Part shown: positions 9,731 to 56,482 of the stretch, piece after piece
Numbering within the stretch: the stretch's first letter is position 1
Layout of the letters: each line of letters opens with the position of its first letter
NCBI GenBank assembly: GCA_017626555.1
Contig: JAGAIM010000049.1
Coordinates: forward strand, 1 to 64,000
DNA from: Bacteroidales bacterium
Lineage (GTDB): Bacteria > Bacteroidota > Bacteroidia > Bacteroidales > UBA932
Direction: 5' to 3'
DNA: 64,000 nt
Notes under the pieces: generated by a model
Seen by the model: only the letters and a program-made list of their open reading frames with translations
Databases searched by the model: none
What the model was told of the DNA's origin: nothing
Made by a program: the position numbers and the translations under genes

Positions 9731-9775
9731 CGGAAGTATTCATTTGTTAATCACGTTATATCGTCGTAAGACAGG

Positions 9776-37595: not shown

Positions 37596-37742
37596 ATGAA
37601 GAAAATTATTACCGGAATGAACCAATACGAAAGTCCGGAAATTGTCCTGGAGGCAATTGAAAATGAGGGCTTCCTTTGCGCAAGCGGAAGCCACGAATCT
37701 CTGACTGAAGATGATAGTTGGGGTGAACTTTTGGAGGACTAG
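37596..37742 (+). CDS. Short acidic Cys peptide, copy 1
   Basis: A 48-residue peptide starting MKKIITGMNQYESPEIVLEA and ending in the acidic DDSWGELLED. It shares the pattern YE[ST]P - about 14 residues - EG[FVM]LC[AE]S, with a single Cys, and an acidic Trp-containing tail with the peptides at 53270 and 56327. There is no signal peptide or hydrophobic helix. The open frame extends upstream to 37497, but the promoter at 37526-37557 lies inside that extension, so the ATG at 37596 is chosen. It ends 6 bases before the M64 lipoprotein gene. Function unknown. It could be a secreted signal, a precursor peptide or a leader peptide that tunes the downstream gene. Confidence 0.75.
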   Translation: MKKIITGMNQYESPEIVLEAIENEGFLCASGSHESLTEDDSWGELLED

Positions 37743-37748
37743 ATTATT

Positions 37749-40502
37749 ATGAAAAGTTTAGGAAAAATCATACTGATGATTACAGCAGTTGTAATCTCAG
37801 TTTCCTGTGTGGAAGATATTGCAGACGGCACTAATGATCAGCCACAGAAGAGCGATCCTGTCGAGATGACTTTCAATGCATCCTTTGCCGATACCAGGAC
37901 AACTCTTATTAACGGAGTTGATGTCTGGTGGGAGCCGGGGGATCTCATTACCATTAACGGAGATTCTTTTTTTGCTGATATAAAGGAGACAGGTCCCTCT
38001 GCGGAATTCAAAGGTGAGACAACTCCTGCTACAGAGTATAGTGCGGCGTATCTCTCCTGTCCATACGAGTGGCGTGACGGCGACTGCTATTTTAATTTCT
38101 CCTGGTGGCAATTGGCTGTAAAGAATCAACTTCCTTGTTTGGTTTCAGCCGCTAAATGTTCAGGTAACGATAAAAGTTTGCGTTTCAAGAGCCTTTTGGG
38201 ATATGTCAAATTCACAGTTACAGAGAAATTTTTACCGAATCGTCTGGATATAACCGCAAATGGAGGAGAATACCTCACTTTGGCTTTGGCGAAGATTGAT
38301 TTTTCCGGAGATGAGCCTGTTCTTGTCGATGTTGAAGATGAATATCCGAAAGAGGTATGTTTGTATTCTGACACCGCTTTGGAGCCAGGAGATTATTATG
38401 TCGCTCTTAACCCTGGGACATTCTCAAGGGGATTGACTTTTACTTTTAGCACGGTTGACGGGAAGATGGTGATAAAGTCGATTAATCAGGAGATAACTCT
38501 TGAAAGGGGAGTGATAAAGAATATCGGAGAGATATCGGAGCCTGAAGGATTGCAGGATCAACTTGAAGCGGAACGTGAAGCATTGATGGATTTTTACAAT
38601 GCTACGGGCGGAGATAATTGGGACGATAACACGAATTGGGGTTCAGACAAACCGGTAAGCGAATGGTATGGCGTTTCTGTTGATGGAATGGGTTGTGTTA
38701 CCGAACTGATTTTTTACGGTAATAATCTTGTATGTGCCGATGACTTACCGGCCTCTATGACGAATTTGAAAAAACTTCGCACATTGATACTGCTCGAGGG
38801 TGATTATCAGAAAATACCTGAAGTGATCAGAAACATCGGGTCGCTTGAGTATTTCAGCATATCTGGCGGAGCCTATACTCCTCTGGAATGCGTTATACCG
38901 GATTGGATCGGTGAACTGACGAATCTGAATACGCTAGGATTGTCCGGAGATTTCCCTGCTATTCCTGATGAGATCACCAATCTGACTAATCTTACATCAT
39001 TGGGAATATCAGGTCCTTGGACTGTAGGAGGTGATCTTGGAGGTAAACTTCCTGATCTGAGCAATCTTAATAAACTCAAATCATTGTCAATAATTTATTA
39101 TAAACTTGACATAGAAATTCCAGATTGGATTTATGATATGACTTCGTTGGAATCCTTGATTCTGAATAATATAGGATTGAGAGGAGAGATATCGGAAAAA
39201 ATATCAAATCTGAAAAACCTCCAGAATCTTGGCTTGCAGACAAATAAACTCGAAGGCAGAATCCCGGACGGGATAACGGAACTTACGAATCTGAACTGGT
39301 TGCAACTTCAGGAAAACAATCTGACAGGAAATGTGCCGGATGGTTTTTCAAACCTCAAGAATCTTATGACCCTTTGGTTATACGGAAACAGGTTGTCAGG
39401 TCGTCTTCCGGAGGATTTCGAGAAGAATCCTAACTATGATTTATGGGGCGTCGATCAGAATGTTCTGCTCCAACAGAGCGGATATGGGCTGGTGCCGTTT
39501 TCTGATATTTACGAGTCGTCCGATTATTCTAAGGATGGAGAAGTGATGGTTCTTCAGGAGGCGAAGGTTACAAATGGCGTTGATATCGTGCTTCTGGGTG
39601 ATGGTTTTGTTGATAAGGATATGAGCAAGGACGGCAAATTCGAGCAGGCTATGAACGAGGCTTTGGAGTATCTGTTCAATCTGGAGCCTATGAAGACATA
39701 TCGTGATTATTTCAATGTGTATGCAGTTAAAGCGGTATCGAAGAATGATAGATTCACAGAAGGATGCCATACTGCTTTTGAATCATTCTTCGGTGAGCCT
39801 CCAGCAGTGAGCGGAAATGATTCCAAAGTGATTGAATATGCTTTAAAGACTCCAGTGAAATCAGTAGATGACCTTACGGTAGCAGTAATACTGAACTCTA
39901 ATGTCTATGCGGGAATGACATCAATGAATATGACTGATAATTCCGCTATAGCCTATGTGGGAATGGCTCGTGACGCCTATGGAGCGTATCCTAATTCCTT
40001 TGAGGCGACCTTTACTCACGAAGTGGTTGGTCACGCTTTGGCTAAACTTGGTGATGAATATGTATATAGGAATGAGGCATATCCGTTGGCAGGAGATATT
40101 GAGTGGAGAAACGAAGCGTGGGTGAAGACAGGTTATTCAGCAAACCTCGACCTGACTTCCGATCCTGATCAGATAAGATGGGCTCATATGCTGAAGGATG
40201 AAAGATATTCCACATATACCGGAATTGTCGAGGGTGGAGACTATTATTCATACGGAATATGGCGTCCGGAGGAGAATAGTATGATGCGTAATAATGACCC
40301 TTATTTCAATGCGCCTTCAAGAGAAGCGATAGTCAAAAGGATAATGGAACTTGCTGGAGAGGAATTCACTTTCGAGAAGTTTGCCCAGAAGGATGTTTAT
40401 AGTCCGTTGCCTTACACAAGATCGAACTATGTGGAAAGGACGTTCGAACATACTCCTCCACCGGTGATAATCAACGGTTCCTGGAGGGATGCCGTAAAGT
40501 AA
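37749..40502 (+). CDS. Surface lipoprotein: fimbrillin-like N-terminus, LRR, M64 metallopeptidase
   Basis: A 917-residue lipoprotein. The signal peptide ends at Cys20 (ISVSC). Residues 30-270 resemble Bacteroidales fimbrillin/Mfa-like N-terminal domains (TFNASFADTRTTLINGVDVW). Leucine-rich repeats of plant-like type fill about 280-570 (for example LTNLNTLGLSGDFPAIPDEI). A peptidase M64 (IgA peptidase family) domain occupies about 600-900, with the zinc motif HEVVGHALAKLGDEY near residue 757. It probably acts on the cell surface on host glycoproteins or other proteins. It lies directly after peptide 1 and should share its mRNA. Convergent with the HD gene. Confidence 0.88.
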   Translation: MKSLGKIILMITAVVISVSCVEDIADGTNDQPQKSDPVEMTFNASFADTRTTLINGVDVWWEPGDLITINGDSFFADIKETGPSAEFKGETTPATEYSAAYLSCPYEWRDGDCYFNFSWWQLAVKNQLPCLVSAAKCSGNDKSLRFKSLLGYVKFTVTEKFLPNRLDITANGGEYLTLALAKIDFSGDEPVLVDVEDEYPKEVCLYSDTALEPGDYYVALNPGTFSRGLTFTFSTVDGKMVIKSINQEITLERGVIKNIGEISEPEGLQDQLEAEREALMDFYNATGGDNWDDNTNWGSDKPVSEWYGVSVDGMGCVTELIFYGNNLVCADDLPASMTNLKKLRTLILLEGDYQKIPEVIRNIGSLEYFSISGGAYTPLECVIPDWIGELTNLNTLGLSGDFPAIPDEITNLTNLTSLGISGPWTVGGDLGGKLPDLSNLNKLKSLSIIYYKLDIEIPDWIYDMTSLESLILNNIGLRGEISEKISNLKNLQNLGLQTNKLEGRIPDGITELTNLNWLQLQENNLTGNVPDGFSNLKNLMTLWLYGNRLSGRLPEDFEKNPNYDLWGVDQNVLLQQSGYGLVPFSDIYESSDYSKDGEVMVLQEAKVTNGVDIVLLGDGFVDKDMSKDGKFEQAMNEALEYLFNLEPMKTYRDYFNVYAVKAVSKNDRFTEGCHTAFESFFGEPPAVSGNDSKVIEYALKTPVKSVDDLTVAVILNSNVYAGMTSMNMTDNSAIAYVGMARDAYGAYPNSFEATFTHEVVGHALAKLGDEYVYRNEAYPLAGDIEWRNEAWVKTGYSANLDLTSDPDQIRWAHMLKDERYSTYTGIVEGGDYYSYGIWRPEENSMMRNNDPYFNAPSREAIVKRIMELAGEEFTFEKFAQKDVYSPLPYTRSNYVERTFEHTPPPVIINGSWRDAVK

Positions 40503-40504
40503 AT

Positions 40505-41191
40505 TCAGGCTAACAAGTCATATATGCGGACGGTTTCGCGATACACTGCGGAGTCGTCCGCTATTATTTCCTGGAGGGCGTTGAGGCGTGCCGCGTTGTC
40601 GCTCCAAGGGATCCATAGTTTAAGATAGCCTCCACGTCCGTATTTTTCACGCAGATGCTCCACCGCTCTTTTGATGTGAGCCTCCCGCTCTAGTGAAGGG
40701 TAGTGGGTGAATCCGAACTGTATTGTACGTCGTATGATTGTCTCTCCGTCAATGACTCTGTCCGCTTCGGCGACGATCTTGCCATAAATGCTCCTTGGGT
40801 CGGATTTGCCCGATGCCCGGTGGTCTTCGGCAGCCTGGGCTATAGTCTCGATCTGCCCGGCGGAGAACCATTCGGTAAGACGTGAGTCGTTCCGTATGAT
40901 CTGCCCCGAGTCCAGATGATGCCTGTCCCTGCCGTTCACAAGTCCGAGGTCGTGGCAGGCTGCTGCTGCAAAAAGAACCTCCCGGTCGATATCTTCCATC
41001 CATAAAGCGGCTGTCTCTGCGCTCTGGGACGAACGCCAGGGCACAAGACCGTCCATAAGGCGCATCGCCTGGTCAATTACTGTGATGGCGTGGTCTTCTC
41101 TGTGTGCAGGATCGAATCCTGCATATTCCGGTACTATTCTGCCATAGATATAATCGAGCAGGCCGGATCTGATATCCTTGTATTGTTCCAT
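40505..41191 (-). CDS. HD-domain hydrolase
   Basis: A 228-residue soluble protein with HD metal-binding residues in REDHAITVIDQA and AAACHDLGLVNG and a further HLDSGQII histidine. It is probably a phosphohydrolase on a nucleotide or phosphoester; the substrate cannot be read. It starts 2 bases downstream of the cardiolipin synthase stop on the minus strand. Confidence 0.85.
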   Translation of the reverse strand: MEQYKDIRSGLLDYIYGRIVPEYAGFDPAHREDHAITVIDQAMRLMDGLVPWRSSQSAETAALWMEDIDREVLFAAAACHDLGLVNGRDRHHLDSGQIIRNDSRLTEWFSAGQIETIAQAAEDHRASGKSDPRSIYGKIVAEADRVIDGETIIRRTIQFGFTHYPSLEREAHIKRAVEHLREKYGRGGYLKLWIPWSDNAARLNALQEIIADDSAVYRETVRIYDLLA

Positions 41192-41193
41192 AA

Positions 41194-42624
41194 TTATAGA
41201 AGAGGTGCGAACAGACGCATAATGGCTTGGATTATCTTATCATACCAAGGGCGTTTTTCCCATTGTGGCAGAGTCACTTCGTTACATTCCTTCAGGTCTG
41301 CCATAAAGATCCTGTAGTTCTCCCTGGCAATATCTTCATTGTATATGTATGCGTTGATCTCGTAACTCAGTTCCATACTTCTGCAGTCCATATTTGCTGA
41401 ACCTATGATGGAAAGATAATCATCCGAAACCATTGTCTTGGAATGAATGAATTTGCCACCCTTTTCAAAGACCCTGATTCCCGCCTCAAGACAGTCGCGG
41501 TAGAAGGATTTGTTTGCCGGTCCCATAAAGAACAGATCGGCTTTTTTCGGAACCATCAGCCTTACGTCACAACCTTTGAATGCAGCAGATTTCAGAGCCA
41601 TAAGAAGTGGCTCAGGAGGCACGAAGTACGGTGTCTGGATATATAGGTATCTCTCGGCGTGGTGGGCTGTCCACAATGCTCCCAGATGCAGTATCGGGAA
41701 TTCCCTGTCCGGCTCATCTGGAATGATCTGGACAAGTTTGTCGTCGTGAATCTGCCTGTCCATAGGGAAGAATTCAGAAAAATCACCGTCGATCTTTCCT
41801 CCGGATGTGATCCAGGAATTGAGAAAACAATACTGCAGTGTGGCGACGGCATTGCCGGTGATGCGGGTGTGAGTGTCGCGCCATCGGAAGAAATAGTCGT
41901 CTCCGATGTTCATTCCTCCCGTGTATCCGACCTTTCCGTCGATAACCACTATCTTGCGGTGATCGCGATAGTTGAATTTAGAGAGCAGGAATGCATTAGG
42001 GTTGGTGAATTTCACCACTTCCACTCCGGCCTCTTTCATTTCATTGTAATAACCGGGCCAGATGGTGATGTTCGCTATGTTCTCGTGGATGAACCTCACC
42101 TTGACACCTTCCCGTGCCTTCTGCATAAGGAGATTCTTTATCCTGCGGCTTCCATCATCCTTGAGAAAATAGAAATATTCGAAATGAATATGGTGCTTTG
42201 CAGCAAGCAGATCATTAATCAGGGCTTCCAGTTTTCTTCCGCCTGAAGTGATGATCTCCAGTTCGTTGTTGTCAGTGACTGTAAGGCCGCTGTCTTTCTT
42301 CAGAAGTCGGCTCAGACTTTGGTATTCCGGCCTTATCTCTTTCTCGTATTCTCCCCCGAACAGCAGATTCCTGGTGTGTTCGTTTGCCTTCTCCTCGAAT
42401 ATGTCCAGAAAATCTTTGTTCCTGTATTGGAAGAATCCGGGCTTGCGGAAATTCATTCCGAAAACAATATAGAGCAGCAGTCCGATGACAGGCAATATGC
42501 CGATAATCAGGATCCAGGCCACCTTTCTGCCTGAATCCTGATTGTCATTCAATATCACCAGAATGGCTCCTATTATCAGAAACGCTCCGATAACGGATAC
42601 CGTTATGGACATTATACCGGTCAT
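41194..42624 (-). CDS. cls: Cardiolipin synthase
   Basis: A membrane phospholipase D-type enzyme that makes cardiolipin from phosphatidylglycerol. The 476 residues have two N-terminal transmembrane helices (about 5-25 and 36-56) and two HKD motifs: HRKIVVIDGKVGYTGGMNIG near 220 and HSKTMVSDDYLSIIGSANMD near 400. The second helix pair and length fit the Cls family. First visible ATG at 42624 (MTGIMSITVSVIGAF). Downstream of glpF on the same strand by 6 bases. Confidence 0.93.
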   Translation of the reverse strand: MTGIMSITVSVIGAFLIIGAILVILNDNQDSGRKVAWILIIGILPVIGLLLYIVFGMNFRKPGFFQYRNKDFLDIFEEKANEHTRNLLFGGEYEKEIRPEYQSLSRLLKKDSGLTVTDNNELEIITSGGRKLEALINDLLAAKHHIHFEYFYFLKDDGSRRIKNLLMQKAREGVKVRFIHENIANITIWPGYYNEMKEAGVEVVKFTNPNAFLLSKFNYRDHRKIVVIDGKVGYTGGMNIGDDYFFRWRDTHTRITGNAVATLQYCFLNSWITSGGKIDGDFSEFFPMDRQIHDDKLVQIIPDEPDREFPILHLGALWTAHHAERYLYIQTPYFVPPEPLLMALKSAAFKGCDVRLMVPKKADLFFMGPANKSFYRDCLEAGIRVFEKGGKFIHSKTMVSDDYLSIIGSANMDCRSMELSYEINAYIYNEDIARENYRIFMADLKECNEVTLPQWEKRPWYDKIIQAIMRLFAPLL

Positions 42625-42630
42625 TTTCTA

Positions 42631-43383
42631 TCAATACAGTGCGATATATGTCAATGCTGCAAGAACCGCACCTGCTATAGGACCTGCCACAGGAACCCAA
42701 CTGTAGCCCCATCCGCTGCTTCCCTTGCCTTTCATAGGAAGTATAGCGTGTGCAAGACGTGGTGAAAGGTCTCTTGCCGGATTGAGGGCATATCCTGTAG
42801 TTCCTCCCAATGACATACCGATTGCCATTATGAGGCAGGTTACCGGAATCGCTCCGAGTTCTCCCATACCAATGTGAAGGTGATAGCCTTCAGCGTCGAG
42901 TGTAGGCACATTTGCATCCACTCCGAACACGAGGATTACGAACACGAGAAGCCAGGTGGCTACAGTCTCGCAGAAGAAGTTGCGGATCTGGTGCCCCTCG
43001 ATGGCCGGCATAGTGCAGAATGTACCGAGTTTGGTGGCAGGATCTTCAGTGATGTCATAATGATCTTTATAGAAAAGCCATACAAGGACTGCTCCTGCGA
43101 ATCCTCCGAGCATCTGGGCTATTATGTAGCCTGGAACAGCACTCCACGCCATTGTACCGGCCATAGCGCATCCTATGCTGACTGCAGGATTGAGATGTGC
43201 TCCGGAAACAGATCCGGCGATGAATACTCCCACCATTACGGCGAAGCCCCATCCCATTGCTATCACGATCCAGCCGGCTCCCTTGGCCTTGCTCTTGTTC
43301 AGACTTGTTGCGGCGCAGACTCCGTCGCCAAGGAGTATCAGCACCATAGTGCCGATGAACTCGAAAAGGTATTTTTCAAACAT
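42631..43383 (-). CDS. glpF: Glycerol facilitator, MIP/aquaporin family
   Basis: A 250-residue six-helix channel for glycerol. The two half-helix motifs are HLNPAVS (near 65) and LNPARDLSPRL (near 200). The Asp after the second NPAR motif is typical of aquaglyceroporins rather than water-only channels. It lies 7 bases after glpK on the minus strand, so uptake and phosphorylation of glycerol are coupled. Confidence 0.95.
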   Translation of the reverse strand: MFEKYLFEFIGTMVLILLGDGVCAATSLNKSKAKGAGWIVIAMGWGFAVMVGVFIAGSVSGAHLNPAVSIGCAMAGTMAWSAVPGYIIAQMLGGFAGAVLVWLFYKDHYDITEDPATKLGTFCTMPAIEGHQIRNFFCETVATWLLVFVILVFGVDANVPTLDAEGYHLHIGMGELGAIPVTCLIMAIGMSLGGTTGYALNPARDLSPRLAHAILPMKGKGSSGWGYSWVPVAGPIAGAVLAALTYIALY

Positions 43384-43390
43384 ATCAGTG

Positions 43391-44878
43391 TTATTTTGTT
43401 GTCAGTGTCCTGCCTATTGCTTCAGACCATCCCTGCTTGAGGCTCTCTACCTGCTGTTGCGATGCCTCAGGCTTGAATTCCATCTCCACACCCCACTGGC
43501 TCTTAATATGGTCGATGCTTTCCCAGTAGCCTACGGCGAGTCCTGCGAGATATGCCGCACCGAGTGCTGTCGTCTCAGTTACTATAGGCCTGATTACGGA
43601 TGTCCCCAGAATATCGGCCTGGAACTGCATCAGGAGATTGTTGCGTGATGCACCTCCATCGACCTTGAGTTCCTTTAATGTGCATCCTGCATCCTTCTGC
43701 ATAGCATTGACTATATCCATAGTCTGGAATGCAATGCCTTCGAGTGCAGCACGTGCAATATGAGCGGCAGTCGTTCCGCGGCTTATGCCATAGATGCTAC
43801 CCTTGGCATACTGATCCCAATGCGGTGCTCCCAGCCCTGTAAGTGCAGGGACGAAATATACGCCTCCATTGTCCGGAACACTGGAAGCAAGCGCTTCCAC
43901 CTCTGAAGATGAACGTATTATCCCCAGGCCGTCACGTAGCCATTGCACCACTGAACCAGCCACGAAAATGCTGCCTTCGAGAGCATAATTCACCTTGTCT
44001 CCGATCTTCCAGGCAATAGTCGTAAGAAGATTGTTGGATGACATTATAGGCCTCTCTCCGCTGTTCATAAGCATAAAGCAACCTGTACCGTATGTGTTCT
44101 TTACTGATCCAGGTTCTGTACACATCTGTCCGAAGAGTGCAGCCTGCTGGTCGCCAGCGATGCCGGCGATAGGGACTTCGTGTGCGAAAAGAGTGGTTTT
44201 GGTATAGCCGTATATCTCACTCGATGACTTCACCTCAGGCATCATCGACTCCGGAATATCTAAAAGACGGAGAAGTTCCTTGTCCCATTCGAGGGTGTGG
44301 ATGTTGAAAAGCATTGTCCTTGATGCATTTGTCACATCGGTCACGTGAACCTCTCCACGAGTGAGCATCCAGATCAGCCAGGTATCGACGGTGCCGAATC
44401 TCAGTTTTCCCTCATCGGCCTTGCGGCGTGCTCCAGGCACGTTTTCCAATATCCATAAGATTTTGGTCGCACTGAAATATGCATCGATGATGAGTCCGGT
44501 CTTGCTGCGGATCAGGTCTGTCCTTCCGTCCCTTTTGAGACTGTCGCATAACTCTGATGTCCTGCGGTCCTGCCATACGATTGCATTATAGACAGGCTCA
44601 CCGGTCTCAGCATCCCAGACAATGGTGGTCTCACGCTGATTGGTGATGCCGATTGCGGCAATGTTCAGGCCGTTGATGTCAATGGATGTGATGGCCTCGG
44701 CTATCACGGATGCCTGTGAGGACCATATTTCCATAGGGTTATGCTCCACCCAGCCCGGCTTAGGGAATATCTGGGTGAACTCTTTCTGTGACACAGCCTT
44801 TGTCTGGCCGTATTCGTCGAATACTATTGCCCTCGAACTGCTCGTTCCCTGGTCAAGGGCGAGAATGTACTTCTCCAT
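43391..44878 (-). CDS. glpK: Glycerol kinase
   Basis: ATP-dependent phosphorylation of glycerol to glycerol 3-phosphate. The 495 residues begin [20 protein letters not shown] (phosphate-1 motif). They carry [13 protein letters not shown] and [10 protein letters not shown] for glycerol binding, [10 protein letters not shown], and the FGGY C-terminal signature with [20 protein letters not shown]. Length is typical. Its product can feed phospholipid synthesis, and the adjacent cls is consistent with that. Confidence 0.97.
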
Positions 44879-44918
44879 AATTATGTGGTTATTGGTCTGT
44901 CTTTATTACTGAAGCCGA

Positions 44919-46274: not shown

Positions 46275-46299
46275 ATAGTCGTGTTTTTACAGTAGGATA

Positions 46300-46336
46300 C
46301 AAAGATAGGATTTTTCGTCGAATATAGTTATCTTTG
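46300..46336. promoter_or_regulatory. Divergent -7 elements for miaB (-) and the lipoprotein-SPOR-rpoN genes (+)
   Basis: TATCTTTG occurs on the minus strand (46307-46300) and on the plus strand (46329-46336), in mirror orientation with 21 bases between. Each is 14-26 bases from the start codon it would serve. -33 elements are not clear. Confidence 0.5.
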
Positions 46337-46349
46337 CGAAGAGGTAAAA

Positions 46350-47422: not shown

Positions 47423-47432
47423 TAGTAGTGTT

Positions 47433-48842: not shown

Positions 48843-48846
48843 CCTA

Positions 48847-48955
48847 TATATAAAAACAGTCAGTGTGATTCCGATGACCCCCGCCCTCGCAGGCTCGGGC
48901 ACCCCCCTAGCCGGGGGTGGCACGTCATCTCCATCACACTGACTGTTTTTATATA
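48847..48955. repeat. GC-rich palindromic element between rpoN and upp, probable terminator
   Basis: Perfect 23-base arms (48847-48869 and 48933-48955) enclose a 63-base core whose reverse complement reads GATGACGTGCCACCCCCGGC at its start, matching the core at 11.6 kb. The arm sequence is unrelated to the arms of the other two copies. The rpoN stop is 4 bases upstream, and upp ends on the other strand about 100 bases beyond. Bases 48956-49051 hold nothing else recognisable. Confidence 0.88.
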
Positions 48956-49051
48956 ATTGGGTATAATTGCCAAAAGCGGTTGGCGAAAATCCTCGTAATT
49001 ATCTGAATTACAATAACTACAATAGCTTTGATGAAATCGGTTCCGTCAAGG

Positions 49052-49705
49052 CTATTTCTTTATGCCGTAGGCAAGGTCGCCGGCATCACCGAGGCCAGGA
49101 ACTATGTATGAGTGGCTGGTGAGTTCTTCGTCAATAGTCGCTACCCAAAGTGTCACTTCATCTGCAGGAAGATGTTTCTGGAGATACTCTACTGCGTATG
49201 CACTTGCGATCGGGCATACCAGATGGGTATGTGCAGGCTTTCCTTCTTCGCAGAGTCTCTTGTATGCAATTTCGAGGGATGCGCCGGTGGCCAGCATAGT
49301 GTCGGCAAGGATCAACACCTTTCCTGTAAGATCCGGAGTGCTGCAATATTCGATGTTGATATGGAAATCTTCTCCCTTATCGTATTTCCTGTATGCAGCG
49401 ACAAAGGCGTTCTGGGCATCGTCGAAATAGTTGAGAATACCTTGATGCAGAGGCAGCCCGGCACGTAAGATGGTGGAAACCACCACTTTGCTATCAGGAG
49501 TCGGTACGCTTGCAATACCAAGAGGAGTTACAACATCCTTCTTGCTGTAGTCAAGTTGCTGACTTATCTCGTATGCGAAAATTTCGCCCAGTCTTTCGAG
49601 ATTTCTGCGGAAACGCATACTGTCTTTCTGGATGCACTTGTCGCGCATCTGTGCTACGAATTTGTTGAGAATGCTGTTCTTCTCTCCAAGGTTGATGATT
49701 TTCAT
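49052..49705 (-). CDS. upp: Uracil phosphoribosyltransferase
   Basis: Salvages uracil to UMP with PRPP. The 217 residues contain the PRPP loop LILADTMLATGASLEIAY and the uracil-binding C-terminal region with GDAGDLAYGIK. The open frame runs back to 49780, but that extension would include a consensus promoter. The ATG at 49705 (MKIINLGEKNSILNKFV) gives the normal length. Confidence 0.94.
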   Translation of the reverse strand: MKIINLGEKNSILNKFVAQMRDKCIQKDSMRFRRNLERLGEIFAYEISQQLDYSKKDVVTPLGIASVPTPDSKVVVSTILRAGLPLHQGILNYFDDAQNAFVAAYRKYDKGEDFHINIEYCSTPDLTGKVLILADTMLATGASLEIAYKRLCEEGKPAHTHLVCPIASAYAVEYLQKHLPADEVTLWVATIDEELTSHSYIVPGLGDAGDLAYGIKK

Positions 49706-49731
49706 TTGTGTGATTTTTGGTTTATGAGTCA

Positions 49732-49763
49732 CAAATATATTCTTATTTGTCAATAACTCAAAA
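49732..49763 (-). promoter_or_regulatory. Promoter of upp
   Basis: On the minus strand TTTTG (49763-49759), 19 bases, TATATTTG (49739-49732): a full match to the Bacteroidota consensus, 27 bases before the upp start. It overlaps the last codons region upstream of radC's end on the same strand only marginally. Confidence 0.75.
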
Positions 49764-49773
49764 TTTTTCCCGT

Positions 49774-50460
49774 TCAGCATCGCGCGACTTCCTCATCCGC
49801 AAAACTGTAGTAACTGTCCTCAGCGATGATTACGTGGTCGAGAAGAGATATCTCGCAGGTCTTGAGGGCTTTATCCAGTTGTTTTGTCGCTTGTATGTCG
49901 GCAGTTCCGGGCAAAGCGCTTCCGGACGGATGGTTGTGCACGAGGATGATGCCGCTGGCACTCTTTTCTATAGCCTTTCTCGCTATCGTACGGCAGTCAA
50001 GAATTGTGGAATCTATGCCTCCGCTGCTGATTCTTTCTTTGGAAATCAGGTGATTGGCGCGGTTGAGGAAGAGCACCCAGCATTCCTCGTGATCCAGCCC
50101 TCTGAGGATCGGGAACATCATTCTGAATACTATCTTGGGAGATGAAATGCTTGTACGTGAATCCGTTATGCATTCGGCTGCGCATCTTCTGCCCAGTTCG
50201 AATGCCGCAGCCAACGTCACTGCCTTGCTTGGGCCGATGCCCTGTGTCCTGCACAGACTTTCCACAGACATTCCGGCTATTATGTTAAGTTTCCCATCGC
50301 TGCTCTTGAGCAGTTCCCTCGCAACGTCGATTACATTCTTTTTCTCCGTACCGGTCCTGAGCATTATCGCCAGCAGTTCGATGTTGCTGAGTGCCTCTGC
50401 CCCTCGTTCCATCATCTTCTCCCGAGGACGCTCCTCTATGCATAAATCCTTGATCTTCAT
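49774..50460 (-). CDS. radC: RadC-family JAB-domain protein
   Basis: A 228-residue protein with an N-terminal helix-hairpin-helix-like part and a C-terminal JAB/MPN domain. The metal-binding motif is LVHNHPSGSALPGTADIQAT, with the later Asp in LLDHVIIAEDSYYSF. The family was named for DNA repair, but its biochemical role is not established. The open frame starts at a TTG (50475). The ATG at 50460 with AAAGGA just upstream is preferred (MKIKDLCIEERPREKM). Confidence 0.92.
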   Translation of the reverse strand: MKIKDLCIEERPREKMMERGAEALSNIELLAIMLRTGTEKKNVIDVARELLKSSDGKLNIIAGMSVESLCRTQGIGPSKAVTLAAAFELGRRCAAECITDSRTSISSPKIVFRMMFPILRGLDHEECWVLFLNRANHLISKERISSGGIDSTILDCRTIARKAIEKSASGIILVHNHPSGSALPGTADIQATKQLDKALKTCEISLLDHVIIAEDSYYSFADEEVARC

Positions 50461-51033
50461 ATCCTTTTTCTGCAAAGTTCCGAAGGATTATCCGTGTACT
50501 CAAAAAGTATTCGGTTAATTTCTCAAATCGGCCTCAGAGGGTGTTGCAAAGGGGAATTGAGGGAGTGAGATTTGTGTGAATTTTGAAAATTCCGCTTGGA
50601 GGCAGTGTCTGCTGTTTTGTGGCAGCGGTTAGTTTCAGGGAAGTGGTTTCGTGGAAGGATTTCCGGAAGGAATGGTCGTAATTCTGCCGCGATGCAAACG
50701 ACACGGCTTCCATATTTGTTTCGTGGAAGGATTGGAATGCAGATCAACCGAGTGACCGTTGAGTCCTGATGACATAGAATGCTTTTTTTGCATATCCATC
50801 GGACGGCAAATCATTGTCTGGTGGTGTTCTGGCCGCTCAATGGGTATGAAAGCGATACCATTGAGCGGTCAGAGGGCATCTGAATGTAGTATTTCCGCTC
50901 AACGGGGGAGTGCAAACAAAAAAAAGCCCCGAACTGATGTTCGAGACTTTTTAGGGTGCCCAGTGGGATTCTTCCGCTACGCTCCAGCGACTTCGTCGAT
51001 GACGAACCCTGTGGGTTCTCACCCACCGGTCAC
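50461..51033. other. Intergenic stretch with short repeats, no gene seen
   Basis: No credible coding region. The octamer-plus phrase TTTCGTGGAAGGATT occurs twice (about 50648 and 50718). A near-perfect hairpin built from CCGCTCAATGG and its complement lies at about 50835-50870, followed by a third partial copy (CCGCTCAACGG) near 50896. A duplicated copy of the tRNA-His 3' end and terminator lies at 50919-50971. The region has the look of eroded or repeatedly rearranged DNA. Confidence 0.5.
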
Positions 51034-51086
51034 AAAAAAAGCCCCGAACTGATGTTCGAGACTTTTTAGGGTGCCCAGTGGGATTC
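50919..51086. repeat. 53-base direct repeat of the tRNA-His 3' end plus terminator
   Basis: Bases 50919-50971 are repeated exactly at 51034-51086, an offset of 115. The repeat covers the last 17 bases of tRNA-His and the downstream minus-strand terminator hairpin (AGTCTCGAAC/GTTCGGGGCT followed by T7). The 62 bases between the copies are unrelated to the tRNA. The arrangement resembles attachment-site copies left at a tRNA 3' end. Confidence 0.85.
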
Positions 51087-51144
51087 GAACCCACGACATT
51101 CAGAACCACAATCTGACGCTCTAACCAACTGAACTATGGGCACC
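51070..51144 (-). tRNA. tRNA-His (anticodon GTG)
   Basis: Minus-strand cloverleaf with an eight-pair acceptor that includes the encoded extra 5' G (G-1) opposite C73, as required for tRNA-His. The anticodon loop is TTGTGGT and the T-arm is GTGGGTTCGAATCCCAC. CCA is not encoded. A terminator hairpin follows at once. Confidence 0.96.
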
Positions 51145-51161
51145 ATATTGGATTAGGACTG

Positions 51162-51191
51162 CAAAGATATGTAAAATTTTCGAACCTGCAA
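51162..51191 (-). promoter_or_regulatory. Promoter of tRNA-His
   Basis: Minus strand TTG (51191-51189), 19 bases, TATCTTTG (51169-51162), 17 bases before the tRNA 5' end. Full consensus spacing. Confidence 0.75.
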
Positions 51192-51302
51192 TAAGGAATA
51201 TGAATTTTTGTGTTTATTTGAGTGTCTTTTGCTAAAGTGTTAATTATATGTCAAGAAAAGTTTCATATATTTGTTGTCTATCAAATATATAAAATCGGTT
51301 TT

Positions 51303-53084
51303 ATGGGACGTGAAATTAAATTCTCTCTTGTTTACAGGGATATGTGGCAGTCATCAGGAAAATATGTTCCGACTGTCGCCCAACTGAAGGAAGTCGCTCC
51401 GGCAATCATAGAAATGGGCTGTTTCGACCGTGTCGAGACTAACGGAGGCGCATTCGAACAGGTCAATCTTCTTTTTGGTGAGAATCCTAATAAGGCCGTG
51501 CGAGAATGGACAGCCCCTTTCCATAAGGCAGGGATACAGACCCATATGCTTGAAAGAGGCCTTAATGCGTTGAGGATGAATCCGGTACCGGCTGATGTGC
51601 GTGAACTTATGTACAAAGTCAAGAAGGCTCAGGGTACGGATATCTCCCGTTCTTTCTGCGGCCTCAACGATCACCGCAATCTCCGCCTCAGTGTTGAATA
51701 CGCCAAAAAGGCCGGAATGATTTCGCAGGTTGCACTTTCCATCACTAATTCGCCTGTGCATACGGTAGAATATTATATGGGCGTGGTTGATCACGTTGTG
51801 GAGTATGGCTGTGACGAGATCTGTCTTAAGGATATGGCGGGAATCGGCCGCCCTTCCTTCCTGGCAGAACTCACTTCCCGGATCAAGAAGAAATATCCGC
51901 ATATCAAGGTTCAGTATCACGGTCATTGCGGTCCTGGCTTCTCTCCGGCATCGATGCTGGAAGTGGCTCGTGCAGGTGCCGACTATCTTGATGTCGCTGT
52001 GGAACCTCTCTCCTGGGGAAAGGTTCATCCGGATGTGATTACGATAAGAGAAATGCTGAAAGCAGACGGATTCCAGGTCAAGGATCTGAATATGAATGCC
52101 TATATGGACGTACGCGCCCTTACCCAGAAATTCATCGACGATTTTCTCGGATATTGGATCGATCCGAACAATTCTCAGATGAGTTCGCTGCTTGTGGGCT
52201 GCGGCCTTCCGGGAGGAATGATGGGCTCGATGATGGCTGACCTGAAAGGATTCCACGGAGCAATCAATTCTTCTTTACGTGCTCAAGGCAAGGCAGAACT
52301 GACTCTTGACCAATTGATGGTGATGCTCTTCCAGGAAGTTGAATATGTATGGCCTCGTCTGGGCTATCCGCCTCTCGTGACACCGTTCAGCCAGTATGTG
52401 AAGAACACGGCTCTGATGAACCTGATGGCTCTTCTCAAGGGACAGCCTCGCTGGACTACCATTGATAAGGACACCTGGAATATGATCCTGGGCAAGATGG
52501 GACGCCTCCCGGGAGAACTTGCGCCTGAGATCGTGGCTCTTGCCAAGGAAAAAGGACTCGAATTCTATACTGGCAATCCTCAGGATGCATTCCCGGACGA
52601 ACTGGATAAATTCCGTGCGATGATGAATGAGGAAGGCTGGGACTGCGGACCGGATGATGAGGAACTCTTTGAACTCGCTATGCACGAAAGACAATATCGT
52701 GACTACAAGAGCGGAGTGGCCAAGGAACGCTTCAATAAGGATCTGGAGGCAGCAAGAGCAAAGGCCGGTGCTCCGATAGTCGTGACCCGTCCTGTGGTGG
52801 AGATGCCTAAGTATGACATTGACAGATTGATGGAGAAATATCCGTCTGCACTTGCTGTGCAATCGCCGGTCAAGGGACAAATTATATGGCAATATGATGT
52901 CGAGGATGCTTCTACCGCACCTGCTGTCGGCACGGAGGTCACTGCAGGCACACCGGTATGTTACGTCCAGACATATTATGGTATAGAGGAAGTGCCGGCA
53001 GCCATAACCGGACGTATCGTGGCAGTATGCTGCCGCCAGGGAGATAAAGTTGCCAAAGGAGAAATTCTGGCTCTGGTGCAGTAA
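51303..53084 (+). CDS. Oxaloacetate decarboxylase alpha / pyruvate carboxylase B-type carboxyltransferase with a degenerate biotinyl domain
   Basis: A 593-residue protein. The carboxyltransferase TIM barrel begins with FSLVYRDMWQSS and carries CLKDMAGIGRP and the metal ligands in YHGHCGPGFSPAS. A conserved PYC/OADA helical domain follows (about 320-480). The C-terminal ~75 residues have the biotinyl/lipoyl-domain fold pattern (SPVKGQIIW, then ITGRIVAVCCRQGDKVAKGE). However, the hairpin that normally carries the biotinylated Lys (MKM) reads CYVQTYYGIEEVPAA and has no Lys. Biotin is presumably supplied by another subunit. The frame extends to 51222, but the ATG at 51303 fits the family. A TATATTTG -7 element lies at 51267-51274. 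Confidence 0.88.
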   Translation: MGREIKFSLVYRDMWQSSGKYVPTVAQLKEVAPAIIEMGCFDRVETNGGAFEQVNLLFGENPNKAVREWTAPFHKAGIQTHMLERGLNALRMNPVPADVRELMYKVKKAQGTDISRSFCGLNDHRNLRLSVEYAKKAGMISQVALSITNSPVHTVEYYMGVVDHVVEYGCDEICLKDMAGIGRPSFLAELTSRIKKKYPHIKVQYHGHCGPGFSPASMLEVARAGADYLDVAVEPLSWGKVHPDVITIREMLKADGFQVKDLNMNAYMDVRALTQKFIDDFLGYWIDPNNSQMSSLLVGCGLPGGMMGSMMADLKGFHGAINSSLRAQGKAELTLDQLMVMLFQEVEYVWPRLGYPPLVTPFSQYVKNTALMNLMALLKGQPRWTTIDKDTWNMILGKMGRLPGELAPEIVALAKEKGLEFYTGNPQDAFPDELDKFRAMMNEEGWDCGPDDEELFELAMHERQYRDYKSGVAKERFNKDLEAARAKAGAPIVVTRPVVEMPKYDIDRLMEKYPSALAVQSPVKGQIIWQYDVEDASTAPAVGTEVTAGTPVCYVQTYYGIEEVPAAITGRIVAVCCRQGDKVAKGEILALVQ

Positions 53085-53118
53085 ATTTCATTCATTCCGG
53101 TCAGGAATAATCATAATC

Positions 53119-53157
53119 AACGGAAATCACTTTTTGCAAGTGGTTTCCGTTTCTTTT
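53119..53157 (+). terminator. Terminator after the carboxyltransferase gene
   Basis: AACGGAAATCACTT pairs with AAGTGGTTTCCGTT (one G-T pair) across a 5-base loop and is followed by TCTTTTG. It lies 35 bases after the stop codon and separates this gene from the peptide 2 operon. Confidence 0.75.
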
Positions 53158-53188
53158 GTTAAATAAAATTAGATATAAGTTAAATTAA

Positions 53189-53219
53189 TTTGAGAAATGG
53201 TTAATTAAAACTATATTTG
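53189..53219 (+). promoter_or_regulatory. Promoter of the peptide 2 / fimbrillin-like operon
   Basis: TTTG at 53189-53192, 19 bases, TATATTTG at 53212-53219: a perfect consensus match. The peptide ATG lies 50 bases downstream of the -7 element. Confidence 0.8.
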
Positions 53220-53269
53220 CCGTTTCTGGGAAATTTTTCGAAATCAAATATTATTTAACACTATTACTT

Positions 53270-53422
53270 ATGGAATTCAACAACAATTTGACTTGGGGGG
53301 GGCAACCCTATGAAACCCCATCTTTAAACGTACTCGATGTTCAGGTCGAGGGAGTATTGTGTGAGAGTCTTACTTCTGATCCAGACGATTGGACTCCAGG
53401 AAATGATGGCTGGTTTGAATAA
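53270..53422 (+). CDS. Short acidic Cys peptide, copy 2 (with a G8 tract)
   Basis: A 50-residue peptide: MEFNNNLTWGGQPYETPSLN at the start, then VLDVQVEGVLCES, then an acidic Trp-containing tail (DPDDWTPGNDGWFE). The central part is nearly identical in protein and DNA to the peptide at 56327 (21 identical bases at 53333-53353), showing recent common origin. Codons 9-11 (Trp-Gly-Gly) lie in a run of eight G, a possible slippage site. No signal peptide. It ends 30 bases before the fimbrillin-like gene and follows a perfect promoter, so it is the first cistron. Function unknown. Confidence 0.75.
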   Translation: MEFNNNLTWGGQPYETPSLNVLDVQVEGVLCESLTSDPDDWTPGNDGWFE

Positions 53423-53452
53423 TCTGCTACGGGTTTAACTTTTAAAAGAGAA

Positions 53453-55486
53453 ATGATTATGAAGACAGGAAATAAACTCTTCTGGATGCTCGCTGCGTCT
53501 GTTCTTTCTTTTGCAGGATGCGAAATTGTTGAAGTTAAGGATGCCTTTATTCCAGAAACTGTTGGCTCGACATTCGAACTAGTGGCTGATATCGCTCAGA
53601 CCAGGACTACTGTAGATCCTGAGGATGGTTATAAGGTTTCTTGGGAGGAAGGTGATGTGATCTATATGGTGACCGATGACGAAACTTGGGGAAAACCATA
53701 TGAATCCAGTAGTGTGACGAATATTGAAACCATAGCAGAATTTGTTTATGGCGATGGCAAATTCACTACAGAGGCTACGATTGATGATGGAGAATATACA
53801 TTCAACGCTATGTATTGTGCGGCAGATAATAAGTCCTGGCACAGGGGAGCAGGGTCAACACATAAACTGAGTGCTGTTCAGAATCAGGATTGTACAAATC
53901 CTACTGCTCACATCAAGAATTATGATGCTCTTGTCGGAACCTTTACTACAACTCTTCCTGTAGAAAATCCACAGAGTGTTGCGATGCATCATATCTATAC
54001 ATTGATGCAGGTGAATGTCGTTAATAATACAGGAGCGGCAATCGAAGTTGCAAAGTTTGAGATGACAGTGGGAGGTGCAGATCTTGTTGGAATATTTAAT
54101 GTTGACGATTTTGCTACTTCAGCGACCTCTGTGAAGACAGGATATGGTGAGACCATAACAGTCAATGTAAGCAATGGAACAGTCTCAGCCGATGAATCTC
54201 TCCCAATTTATTTCGTAGTATCTCCATTTACATCCGATGCTGAAAAAGGCATTACCTTTAAAGTTACCGATGCTTCTGGTAATACCTACACAAAGACTGT
54301 AAATAAAGCCATCACATTCTCAGCAGGAACTTATAATACTACTCCATATACTATCACTAAGGCCGACGAAGTGGAAGAAATTGATTATTCGGGAAAATTC
54401 GCTGCAGTTGTTTGTAAATCAAATGAATATGTTTATTTGACAACCAATGCAAGTGGGAAAAGATTGGCGACAGATGCTTCTGGGGTTTCAAACATTACAG
54501 ACTATTCGACTACGCTCACTGATTTTAAGCGAGTTTCACCTGAATATATTTGGTCAATTAATAAGATTGAAGGTTCGTCTTACTATACTATGTGTGCTAA
54601 TTCTTTATATATAAAAAAGGTTACTACGTCTAGTAATTATGCATATACAGATGAGTCGGAAGAAAATGCGGAACCTGTAAAAATTACTTACAATGCAGAG
54701 AAAAAGTGCTACATGATAGAAAGCACAACTAGTGGTTATGCTGGAAGAAAACTAGCAGTGAATACGACTGAGGCGTATTATGCATTCTATGGAAGTACAA
54801 CAACGATGCTTACTGATATTATTCTTATTCCATATGAAGAAGATACCACTCCAATATTGTCAGTTCCATCTAATATACAATCTGTTGTAGATCAGCAAAC
54901 AAAAACAATCACAATAACTTGGGATGCCGTTCCTAATGCTTCAAAGTATGTTGTATTATGTGATGATCTAAAATCTGAGGTCAATGAATCGCAATGCGTC
55001 ATTAATGTAGCGGAATATGGAATGTATACTGTTACTATAGAGGCCTTTGCTGAAGGATATTACTCTTCTAAATCAGATCCTATTAATGTGGAGGTAGTTG
55101 ACCCCTCTGTATCTACAACAACGGTTACATTTAGCTGTAATGACAGTGATTTTGTTGCAGATACAGATTGTATAAAGGCTACAAATGGTGTAATAATTGT
55201 TACTCAAGAAAAGGCAAAAGGGTCAAGTTTTGATACTAAATATTTAAATCCATTACGATTTTATGCGGCTAATACACTAACTATATCAGGAGCTGTAATA
55301 ACAAAAATTGAAATTGGGTTTAATGGAACTTATAAAGGAGACAATCTAATTAGTGATGTTGGTAGTTTTAATGGGACAATATGGGTTCCAACTGAAAATA
55401 ATGAATCTGAGACTGTAGTTCTGACAAATAATGGAAACTCTCAGACTCGTATAGATTCTATAACTATTACTTATAAAAATAAATAG
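53453..55486 (+). CDS. Fimbrillin-like surface lipoprotein with Fn3 and C-terminal beta-sandwich
   Basis: A 677-residue predicted lipoprotein. The signal ends at Cys23 (SVLSFAGC). Residues 35-300 are fimbrillin/Mfa-like (ELVADIAQTRTTVDPEDGYK). Residues about 310-465 form a module also seen in the protein at 59873 (YIWSINKIEGSSYYTM versus YLWNLSYYEGELWMAN). An Fn3-like domain follows (about 470-550, TITITWDAVPNASKYVV), then a C-terminal beta-rich domain. No catalytic motif is seen. The start is ATG 53453 or in-frame ATG 53459. From about 54,380 on the DNA becomes visibly A/T-richer than the first half, suggesting a mosaic origin. Confidence 0.8.
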   Translation: MIMKTGNKLFWMLAASVLSFAGCEIVEVKDAFIPETVGSTFELVADIAQTRTTVDPEDGYKVSWEEGDVIYMVTDDETWGKPYESSSVTNIETIAEFVYGDGKFTTEATIDDGEYTFNAMYCAADNKSWHRGAGSTHKLSAVQNQDCTNPTAHIKNYDALVGTFTTTLPVENPQSVAMHHIYTLMQVNVVNNTGAAIEVAKFEMTVGGADLVGIFNVDDFATSATSVKTGYGETITVNVSNGTVSADESLPIYFVVSPFTSDAEKGITFKVTDASGNTYTKTVNKAITFSAGTYNTTPYTITKADEVEEIDYSGKFAAVVCKSNEYVYLTTNASGKRLATDASGVSNITDYSTTLTDFKRVSPEYIWSINKIEGSSYYTMCANSLYIKKVTTSSNYAYTDESEENAEPVKITYNAEKKCYMIESTTSGYAGRKLAVNTTEAYYAFYGSTTTMLTDIILIPYEEDTTPILSVPSNIQSVVDQQTKTITITWDAVPNASKYVVLCDDLKSEVNESQCVINVAEYGMYTVTIEAFAEGYYSSKSDPINVEVVDPSVSTTTVTFSCNDSDFVADTDCIKATNGVIIVTQEKAKGSSFDTKYLNPLRFYAANTLTISGAVITKIEIGFNGTYKGDNLISDVGSFNGTIWVPTENNESETVVLTNNGNSQTRIDSITITYKNK

Positions 55487-56273
55487 TTTAAAATTAATGA
55501 TTGAATAACTTTTGTGAAAGAATTGAGAGTAAGATAGTTTTCTATGTGGGAGGGGAAAGGATATGCGCAGACAATCAGGAAATGACACCTTGGCTGTTTT
55601 GGGGCTAGGGAATGGCCAAGGTGTAACGAAAAAGTGCTCGTGAAGCGTCTTTTCAGCACATCTTGGACGGTTTTGTGTCAATTTCTGTCCAAGATGTCTG
55701 ATTCGGGCTTGTTCTGATCTGTGATTTGGACTTGTTCCGATTTGTGATCTAGTTCTGGTGAATGTTGTGTGCGGAAAGTTCACTGGAACTGCCGGATTCT
55801 GCCCTTGAAGTCGTGATTCGGGAGGTTCTGGTGAAGTTCTGGCTGCCAGGATTCACTAGAACCTTCGCTAGAACCTTCACTAGAACCTTTGCTAGAACCC
55901 TTGAAGAGAGACTGTATGAAGGAGACTGTTTGACGAATATGTTTATATCGGAGGCGCTTTTTGTTGAGACGGCCAGCGTCGCCGGAATATACGACCTCCG
56001 GCGACTACAGATCAAGCGCTGCGGGTCGGCTCGGCCAAAGGGCCGTCCTCGCGCTTGACTGTTGTCCTCCTATCGCACGAATTGTTCTTCATTGAGTTTG
56101 GGCGCGGATAATCGGAGTCAACCTGAATCAGGAAATGACAGTTCCGATCTGTGATCTGGTTCTGGTGAATGTTGTGTGCGGATATTCATTTGATTTTTAT
56201 GAAAAACCAACAACTTATTCCACAGAGTTGCTGAAAATTCTGTACAACTCTATGATAAGCGAAATAAAAATTC
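55487..56273. other. Intergenic stretch with many hairpins and a duplicated block, no gene assigned
   Basis: Contents: inverted repeats CACCTTGGC/GCCAAGGTG (about 55585-55625), ACATCTTGGAC/GTCCAAGATGT (about 55657-55696) and GTCGCCGG/CCGGCGAC (about 55978-56006); four tandem steps of the type CTAGAACCTT at about 55853-55893; and a block containing TGGTGAATGTTGTGTGCGG present at about 55733-55778 and again at about 56137-56181. A GC-rich stretch lies at about 55960-56058. I see no convincing gene. It may hold a small RNA or remnants of a mobile element. Confidence 0.5.
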
Positions 56274-56281
56274 TAACTTTG
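56274..56281 (+). promoter_or_regulatory. -7 element of the peptide 3 / nuclease lipoprotein operon
   Basis: TAACTTTG fits TAnnTTTG and lies 45 bases before the peptide ATG, almost the same distance as at the peptide 2 locus. No TTG is found at -33. Confidence 0.5.
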
Positions 56282-56326
56282 TGGAATATCACATTTCGAC
56301 ACAGATTCTAGTAACAATAATTAATT

Positions 56327-56482
56327 ATGACACTTAAACATTTTGATTTATCTCAGAAGGGTTTTTCATACGAGACACCTTCTGTAAGCATTCTCGATGT
56401 TCAGGTCGAGGGAATGCTCTGCGAAAGCGGAATCAGCATCAATGATTGGGAGAACGATGAAGAACTCCTTGATTTTGACTAA
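56327..56482 (+). CDS. Short acidic Cys peptide, copy 3
   Basis: A 51-residue peptide (MTLKHFDLSQKGFSYETPSV, then SILDVQVEGMLCES, then an acidic tail with NDWENDEELLDFD). It shares YETP, LDVQVEG and LCES with copy 2, including 21 identical bases (56393-56413), and the looser pattern with copy 1. There is one Cys, no signal peptide, and a strongly negative C-terminus. It ends 28 bases before the lipoprotein gene. Function unknown; precursor, signal or cis-acting leader peptide are all open. Confidence 0.75.
   Translation: MTLKHFDLSQKGFSYETPSVSILDVQVEGMLCESGISINDWENDEELLDFD

Follow-up and report, generated by a model that had tools for sequence, protein, structure and literature searches.

Linear polyphosphorylated peptides (LPPs) are characterized, according to the main text of Popov et al. 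2026 (PMC13381572), by five kinds of protein and by a YxxPxVLxHQxIxFETxxS motif. YxxP is described there as a leader motif of ribosomally synthesized and post-translationally modified peptides (RiPPs), bound by PqqD-type RiPP recognition element (RRE) proteins. LppB binds the leader via Tyr −16 and Pro −13, LppS (Ser, His, Asp) cleaves after residue −1 once LppB presents the leader, and LppK puts one to four phosphates on Ser 3. The same text states that LPPs are restricted to Bacillota and that their role is unknown, and the string "Bacteroid" is absent from it. Here we examine a 64,000-nucleotide stretch of a Bacteroidales genome (contig JAGAIM010000049.1, hereafter the window), which encodes three short peptides, each placed directly before a gene for a fimbrillin-like lipoprotein. 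The three are members of a large, real, protein-conserved family. We consider it probable, at roughly 0.74, that the family consists of dispersed, LPP-like precursors of RiPP type, matured in trans by one cassette of enzymes and an exporter, and co-produced with surface adhesins.

The resemblance to LPPs, as these are described in the main text of PMC13381572, extends to both the enzymes and the precursors. Both systems have a discrete RRE protein, a signal-peptidase-like peptidase with Ser, His and Asp, an MsbA-like exporter and precursors with a variable C terminus, the activities here being predicted. The HprK-like kinase of LPPs has a putative counterpart here. LPPs also have a nucleoside triphosphate (NTP) transferase; here its profile matched 14 of 33 cassette loci, so that it is often not part of the cassette. 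The LPP leader reads YxxPxV with the phosphorylated Ser 18 residues past Tyr, whereas here the leader reads YxxP with a Ser 18 to 20 residues past Tyr. LPP clusters hold one to three precursors each; here about 20 are dispersed and the cassette lies elsewhere. LPPs belong to Bacillota, whereas the present peptides belong to Bacteroidia and are paired with fimbrillin-like lipoproteins.

A preliminary description of the window had picked out three frames of 48–51 residues with one Cys each, each behind a TAnnTTTG element and each followed within 6–30 bases by a large lipoprotein gene. All of this was confirmed, with gaps of 6, 30 and 28 bases between peptide and next open reading frame (ORF) for copies 1, 2 and 3. 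The relevant features are as follows, the core boundaries being set by analogy with the LPP precursor LppA.

37550–37557, + strand: TAnnTTTG promoter-like element of peptide 1, 46 bases upstream of the start codon
37596–37742, + strand: peptide 1, 48 residues, with the Tyr of YxxP at 37626
From about 37677, + strand: predicted core of peptide 1, CASGSHESLTEDDSWGELLED, with Ser as core position 3
37749–40502, + strand: fimbrillin-like lipoprotein with leucine-rich repeat (LRR) and IgA peptidase M64 domains, 917 residues
53212–53219, + strand: TAnnTTTG promoter-like element of peptide 2, 58 bases upstream of the start
53270–53422, + strand: peptide 2, 50 residues, with the Tyr of YxxP at 53309
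From about 53360, + strand: predicted core of peptide 2, CESLTSDPDDWTPGNDGWFE
53453–55486, + strand: fimbrillin-like lipoprotein, 677 residues, with an fn3 match under the cut-off
56274–56281, + strand: TAnnTTTG promoter-like element of peptide 3, 53 bases upstream of the start
56327–56482, + strand: peptide 3, 51 residues, with the Tyr of YxxP at 56369
From about 56420, + strand: predicted core of peptide 3, CESGISINDWENDEELLDFD
56511–58955, + strand: fimbrillin-like lipoprotein with a DUF6359 domain, 814 residues, N-terminal domain modelled
Locus L299, 7681–7947: PqqD protein of the cassette in the same genome

Scans of Pfam, NCBIfam and PHROGs gave no family name for any of the three peptides. 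Peptide 2 matched the paeninodin leader model NF033524 weakly and below threshold (E 0.06), and the idea of an RRE was therefore put to the test. As had been noticed before, copies 2 and 3 have a run of bases in common, exactly 21 long (from 53333 and from 56393). A degenerate DNA pattern back-translated from the motif picked out these two copies in the window and gave no match in 100 dinucleotide shuffles; copy 1 falls outside the pattern, yet had the top score in the profile search.

Peptide anatomy was described from 82 profile-found peptides (alignment A3), counting Tyr as position 0. From 89 places examined, four without a motif near the stop were dropped and three were removed by hand (L044 and L104, which look unrelated, and L106, which is peptide-like with no ORF behind it). 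Tyr is present in 81/82 and Pro at +3 in 82/82. Position +5 is Val in 26%, followed by Thr, Ala, Leu, Met and Ile; +7 is Val or Ile in 68%, +9 is acidic in 59% and +10 is hydrophobic. Glu occupies +13 in 70% and Gly +14 in 49%, with hydrophobic residues at +15 and +16. Ser stands at +19 in 57/82 and somewhere in +18 to +20 in 80/82, and the stretch from +17 onward is net acidic in 82/82, with Trp in 68%. Cys occurs at +17 in 63% (52/82). We had considered Cys as the defining residue and rejected it, since it varies while Tyr, Pro and the downstream Ser are nearly invariant. The EG-x-LC core that the preliminary description took as the family hallmark likewise proved too narrow: EG is found in 29/82 peptides and EG together with Cys in 22/82. 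What is kept in relatives is YxxP and the downstream Ser.

Substitution patterns mostly favor a real gene. The first 80 of the 116 pattern loci supplied 15 partly overlapping pairs of peptides that are at least 70% identical. The non-synonymous rate (pN) was below the synonymous rate (pS) in 11 of these pairs; the other four had zero synonymous change, with pN from 0.01 to 0.05. For the eight pairs whose pS reached 0.2 or more, pN/pS was about 0.23 to 0.6. In 7 of these 8, the motif block of 20 residues had a lower pN than the remainder, a comparison that is biased because several of the block's residues are dictated by the search pattern.

The peptides occur predominantly before adhesin-like genes. 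A profile of six peptides from the window's own genome found 16 places in that genome, all followed by a same-strand fimbrillin-like lipoprotein gene, as judged by eye. A 15-peptide profile found 21 places there, 20 intact and one (C216) without a start codon, and at E ≤ 1 matched 11/12 congeneric genomes and 0/8 other genomes of the order. In the start-less copy (L014/L066, contig 216) the Tyr is missing as well, and the lipoprotein frame behind it is still open. A pattern scan of named genome contigs gave at least 118 matches in at least 116 loci. Six of the 118 were judged to be chance matches in unrelated frames (L168, L194, L210, L221, L257, L276), and five copies run off the end of the record (L175, L179, L200, L259, L270), although L270 still shows the beginning of a lipoprotein at E 2.9e-5. 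Among the matches listed, 101 of the 107 readable copies, representing 99 distinct peptides, were followed by a fimbrillin-like gene, called with a hidden Markov model built from 81 downstream proteins (E < 1e-5). Over all ORFs of at least 80 residues in the same loci, 134/2108 were fimbrillin-like, the 101 included. The copies with no fimbrillin-like gene next to them were L178, L204 (Proteiniphilum), L226, L258, L265 and L277. The carriers, among 80 matches listed, were mostly Bacteroidales metagenome bins, many from the guts of ruminants or other herbivores; cultured carriers among the matches listed were Bacteroides caecigallinarum, Phocaeicola intestinalis, Caecibacteroides pullorum and Proteiniphilum acetatigenes. 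One locus (L087, G005 contig 6) has tandem family peptides at 988–1131 and 1145–1282 ahead of a single lipoprotein gene.

Viewed from the lipoprotein side, the window's genome has 53 fimbrillin-like matches at E ≤ 0.001. The 25 strongest (E ≤ 9.5e-17) comprised 19 with an intact peptide, one with the start-less peptide and five without a peptide. Four of these five (L119, L123, L130, L131) lie close behind or overlap a same-strand ORF and look operon-internal; the fifth (L124) has the promoter element and no peptide. Five weaker matches that were examined had no family peptide, and among the remaining 23 weaker matches at least one (C213) has a peptide. The gap between peptide and lipoprotein has a median of 14 bases (5–95% range −8 to 31). 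TAnnTTTG was found 15–120 bases upstream of the peptide in 42/112 pattern loci; the corresponding frequency was 3.7% for random stretches and 5.4% for shuffled ones. A short way upstream of the lipoprotein start it was found in 2/109. One promoter is therefore apparently common to both genes, and the peptide seems to be the first cistron of their transcript.

As judged from modelling, the lipoproteins encoded downstream carry a fimbrillin-type domain. The N-terminal 298 residues of the third window lipoprotein (56511–57404) were modelled with AlphaFold2 using 52 relatives (mean predicted local distance difference test score, pLDDT, 81.7). The model matched 4dgu and 3sy6, Bacteroides adhesion and fimbrial proteins, at E 3.6e-9 to 6.1e-9 and TM-scores of 0.46–0.54, in agreement with the fimbrillin-like N-terminus proposed in the preliminary description. 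The top matches in the PDB (4dgu, 3sy6, 3ufi, 3t2l, 4k4k) had E 4e-9 to 6e-8 and TM-scores of 0.44–0.54, and a lower-ranked match was Mfa4 of P. gingivalis (5dhm). In total 25 chains matched at E ≤ 0.001; each of the first 18 came from Bacteroides or Porphyromonas, and almost every title names the protein as fimbrial, an adhesin or a cell adhesion protein. Pfam Mfa_like_1 reached 3/81 downstream proteins at E 0.01, and the fimbrillin claim is therefore carried by the fold comparison of one member and by the profile built here. The modelled N-domain shares the fold of the type V pilins and fimbrillins of Bacteroidia (BT0320, 4dgu; BF1861, 3sy6; Mfa4, 5dhm; TM-scores 0.38–0.54). Unlike in those proteins, the domain here is fused to varied C-terminal domains (LRR and M64 peptidase, DUF6359, endonuclease), and its gene is preceded by a peptide frame.

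At E ≤ 0.01 a single PqqD (PF05402) match was found in the window's genome; one or more occur in 11/13 genomes of the genus. The cassette PqqD/RRE protein scored 46.4 bits against PF05402 (cut-off 23.4). Its neighbors in the window's genome are an ABC (ATP-binding cassette) exporter, an S24-like peptidase and a kinase-like P-loop protein about 290 residues long. The peptidase is above the Pfam cut-off in L302 and just under it in L299. Using tblastn on 13 PqqD loci, 11 of them from the genus, we found the kinase-like protein and the exporter in 8 loci each and the peptidase in 9. Ser33, His73 and Asp88 of the peptidase are invariant in 14/14 aligned sequences (L301 and L355 left out), and its best NCBIfam match was sigpep_I_arch, under the cut-off; we predict it to be a leader peptidase resembling signal peptidase I of archaeal type. 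The exporter has ABC_membrane and ABC_tran domains over the cut-off, with MsbA and peptide or type I exporters among its best NCBIfam matches, none over the cut-off. The kinase-like protein carries invariant SGTGKSTHS and NDDNP motifs. NCBIfam ScmC and ScmD (SynChlorMet) and HprK-related kinase A were among the best weak matches of the kinase and PqqD proteins, all far under curated cut-offs. A search of solved structures with the kinase sequence found no useful relative. NTP transferase was strong in L306 and L403 (PF14907), and its profile matched 2/11 loci in L299–L309, 6/12 in L354–L365 and 6/10 in L403–L413 without L409, several of the loci being incomplete.

For the RRE profile, the best solved relative was the lasso RRE TfuB1 (6jx3, E 1e-4), and no LppB entry was found in the PDB at E ≤ 1. 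The LppB pocket residues L32, N33, Y60 and D70 correspond to invariant RRE columns L34, N35, Y63 and D73 (offsets +2, then +3), in a comparison of residue numbers matched without the sequence of LppB and chosen after the fact. If the geometry of Ser and cut site in LPPs is applied here, the cut would fall near +16/+17, and the cores would start at or near Cys.

In L303 (G012 contig 27) a second, divergent PqqD stands with NTP-transferase-like genes, with no kinase found and with surrounding genes that by appearance resemble polysaccharide-export genes. Two PqqD-like genes, one of them divergent, are present per cassette in L360 (Bacteroides caecigallinarum) and L364 (uncultured Phocaeicola). 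Near a PqqD match in L311 (G014 contig 24), a 453-residue protein encoded at 8535–9896 starts with MEKLRYERPI, which is YxxP-like and is possibly an enzyme tag recognized by the RRE.

The cassette tracks the peptide family, and most peptide genomes carry it, usually at a separate site. Of 247 genomes sampled from the class, 5 contained peptides (E ≤ 0.01), and the kinase at E < 1e-50 was found in exactly those 5, with six further genomes giving weak kinase matches (6e-11 to 7e-18). In a sample of 198 genomes of the order, peptides were found in 8, the kinase (E ≤ 1e-20) in 11 and both in 7, so that the kinase was present in 7/8 peptide genomes versus 4/190 others. Fisher tests gave 1.4e-10 (class) and 1.2e-9 (order), values that overstate significance because relatedness is ignored, although the hits span several families. 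The window's genome is present in both samples. One of the five class genomes, G022, has two peptides in alignment A3, and its detection is therefore not independent; it was first found with the earlier profile A2. In the 30 genomes behind true pattern loci the kinase was found in 27 (one match being partial, E 1.7e-14), and in the 4 behind chance matches it was found in none. PqqD alone was rejected as a marker, as it occurs in 5/8 same-order genomes without a detected peptide, in which the kinase (E ≤ 1e-20) is found in 0/8.

Peptide and cassette are also physically linked in some genomes. We fetched 33 cassette loci by kinase or PqqD position, which is not a random draw: of 30 kinase places in pattern-locus genomes 7 were taken, mainly from cultured strains, and L365 was taken since its contig also holds a pattern locus. 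A family peptide lies within 6 kb of the cassette in 7/33 (L354, L355, L359, L361, L365, L403, L404), and cassette genes are also present in L370 and L247, which were reached from the peptide side. In L359 (Proteiniphilum) one strand encodes peptide, fimbrillin-like lipoprotein, kinase, peptidase, PqqD, NTP transferase and exporter. In L354 and L370, peptide and lipoprotein are followed by PqqD and next by kinase or NTP transferase, and in L355 and L361 two genes, Wza- and Wzc-like by eye, lie between kinase and peptide. In L403 a peptide with a weak score (E 0.002) heads kinase, peptidase, PqqD, NTP transferase and exporter, with no adhesin. The second peptide profile included some of the linked peptides; the first had already found L354, L355, L359, L361, L365 and L370. 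The earlier statement that no modifying enzyme is adjacent to the peptides thus holds within the window, but not beyond it, since the cassette lies elsewhere in the genome and some related cassettes stand beside peptides in other genomes.

On this basis, a pathway resembling that of the Bacillota LPPs can be proposed. The YxxP leader would be bound by the stand-alone PqqD/RRE protein, the signal-peptidase-like Ser/His/Asp protease would cut ahead of the C-x-S stretch, the HprK-like kinase would phosphorylate the conserved Ser, and the MsbA-like ABC exporter would send out an acidic core of about 20 residues. Binding, cleavage and its site, phosphorylation, export and action with the adhesin are steps that we infer. 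In the window's genome, about 20 precursors encoded at scattered chromosomal sites would be served by a single cassette. As each peptide is the first cistron before an adhesin gene, the two would be made together and would probably act together at the cell surface.

A number of observations weigh against this reading. The resemblance of the kinase to HprK-type models is weak (TIGR04352, E 4e-4, far under the cut-off), and an AlphaFold2 model of it, built with two sequences as input, reached a pLDDT of 37.6 and was discarded. No NTP transferase was found beside the cassette of the window's genome, a search confined to L299. Within 6 kb of the cassette no peptide was found in 26/33 loci, and in the window's genus none of 12 PqqD or kinase loci (L299–L309, L413) has a peptide near the cassette. 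Four of the 11 kinase-bearing genomes in the order sample had no detected peptide, three genomes behind true pattern loci had no kinase match, and G576, in which no kinase was found at E ≤ 1e-20, has a frame resembling the peptide that overlaps a fimbrillin-like gene. The second half of the leader, which here resembles E-[GQ]-[VI]-[LI]-C-x-S, differs from the consensus LxHQxIxFETxxS given in the main text of PMC13381572, and we therefore call the peptides LPP-like and do not file them as LPPs.

Whereas the preliminary description had left precursor, chaperone-like partner and translated leader as options, the precursor is now favored and the other two stand as rivals. Should the frames be leaders acting in cis, whose translation couples to or tunes that of the lipoprotein while the peptide product is idle, then the first-cistron position, the small or negative gaps, the bias of TAnnTTTG towards the peptide and the four operon-internal-looking lipoprotein genes without peptides would all be expected. 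Such leaders would not predict a YxxP at fixed spacing, an acidic tail in every one of the 82 peptides or co-occurrence with an RRE, kinase, peptidase and exporter cassette; moreover, the L403 peptide heads an enzyme operon without an adhesin, and L124 has the promoter element and lacks a peptide. We regard a leader in cis as unlikely. Unmodified cytosolic partners with a chaperone-like role, the cassette working on other substrates, would fit the tight pairing with a single protein family and the lack of peptides beside the cassette in the window's genus. Tail and lipoprotein similarity also show a weak residual correlation (partial r 0.11–0.16, 92 loci), a measurable but small co-variation that may reflect common descent. 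However, the lipoproteins have predicted signal peptides and would fold outside the cytoplasm, and at L268 and L278 near-identical peptides stand ahead of unrelated lipoprotein domains (similarity 0.07); peptide and adhesin can therefore apparently be re-paired. Taken with the weak correlation, this pair would fit peptides matched to their adhesin as well as interchangeable ones. Chaperone-like partners would also leave both the co-occurrence with the cassette and the linked loci unexplained, and we hold them to be very improbable.

Two further rivals accept maturation. Exported RiPPs are frequently antimicrobial, and the many variable tails per genome would suit secreted antimicrobials or signals, with the lipoprotein as receptor, carrier or immunity protein and not as structural partner. 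Against this, the downstream proteins combine a fimbrillin-type domain with a range of C-terminal domains, the scans named no immunity family, and about 20 copies per genome would be unusual for a bacteriocin, so that we consider such a role distinctly unlikely, slightly ahead of a cytosolic chaperone. Lasso peptides of the paeninodin type are the other candidate, sharing with the present system, in the available text of the sources, a YxxP-like leader, a leader-binding PqqD-type B1 protein, an HprK-like kinase (acting on Ser in paeninodin, putative here), a nucleotidyltransferase (NTP transferase) and an ABC exporter (PMC5067487, PMC9266682, PMC7533575). Paeninodin leaders mostly have Trp, according to the main text of PMC13381572, whereas Tyr is found here, and the cassettes have a signal-peptidase-like protease in place of the lasso B2 leader peptidase. 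The lasso leader peptidase family PF13471 was over the cut-off in 1/37 genomes (G317) and sub-threshold in two more, one being G416 (Proteiniphilum), many of the genomes being incomplete bins. No macrolactam cyclase was named among the scanned cassette proteins, PF00733 not having been searched. Lasso precursors were disfavored on the scarcity of PF13471 and are the least probable of the explanations considered.

A broader form of the LPP-like reading can be put forward tentatively, and we would not bet on it: each fimbrillin-like lipoprotein would be co-made with a small (poly)phosphorylated peptide of its own; after export through an ABC transporter common to all, the peptide would attach to, complete or charge the adhesin at the surface; the system would be general in Bacteroidia, with the Bacillota LPPs a branch of the same surface peptide chemistry. 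If LPP-like maturation is correct, an enzyme set of this kind in Bacteroidia, with about 20 precursors of one genome tied individually to surface adhesins, would offer a first concrete lead to the function of LPPs, and the many short frames without a name in gut Bacteroidales would be explained. The layout would be that of a single maturation cassette for many scattered precursors, which cluster-based RiPP mining would miss. In the literature searched (best matches, mostly without subscription papers) we found no account of the pairing of such peptides with fimbrillins. The terms "HPr" and "nucleotidyltransferase" are absent from the main text of a Bacteroidales RiPP survey (PMC10352776), and "Bacteroid" and "kinase" from a paper on RREs (PMC12710340).

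Two further genes follow the third peptide–lipoprotein pair in the window.

59052–59861, + strand: DNA/RNA non-specific endonuclease domain protein (PF01223, E 5.8e-39)
59873–62122, + strand: fimbrillin-like lipoprotein with an Endonuclease_NS domain, 11 bases past the preceding gene, without a peptide

The gene at 59052–59861 begins after a gap of 97 bases from the third lipoprotein gene, has no peptide of its own and is probably a later gene of the third operon. The two successive endonuclease-domain genes possibly encode surface nucleases.

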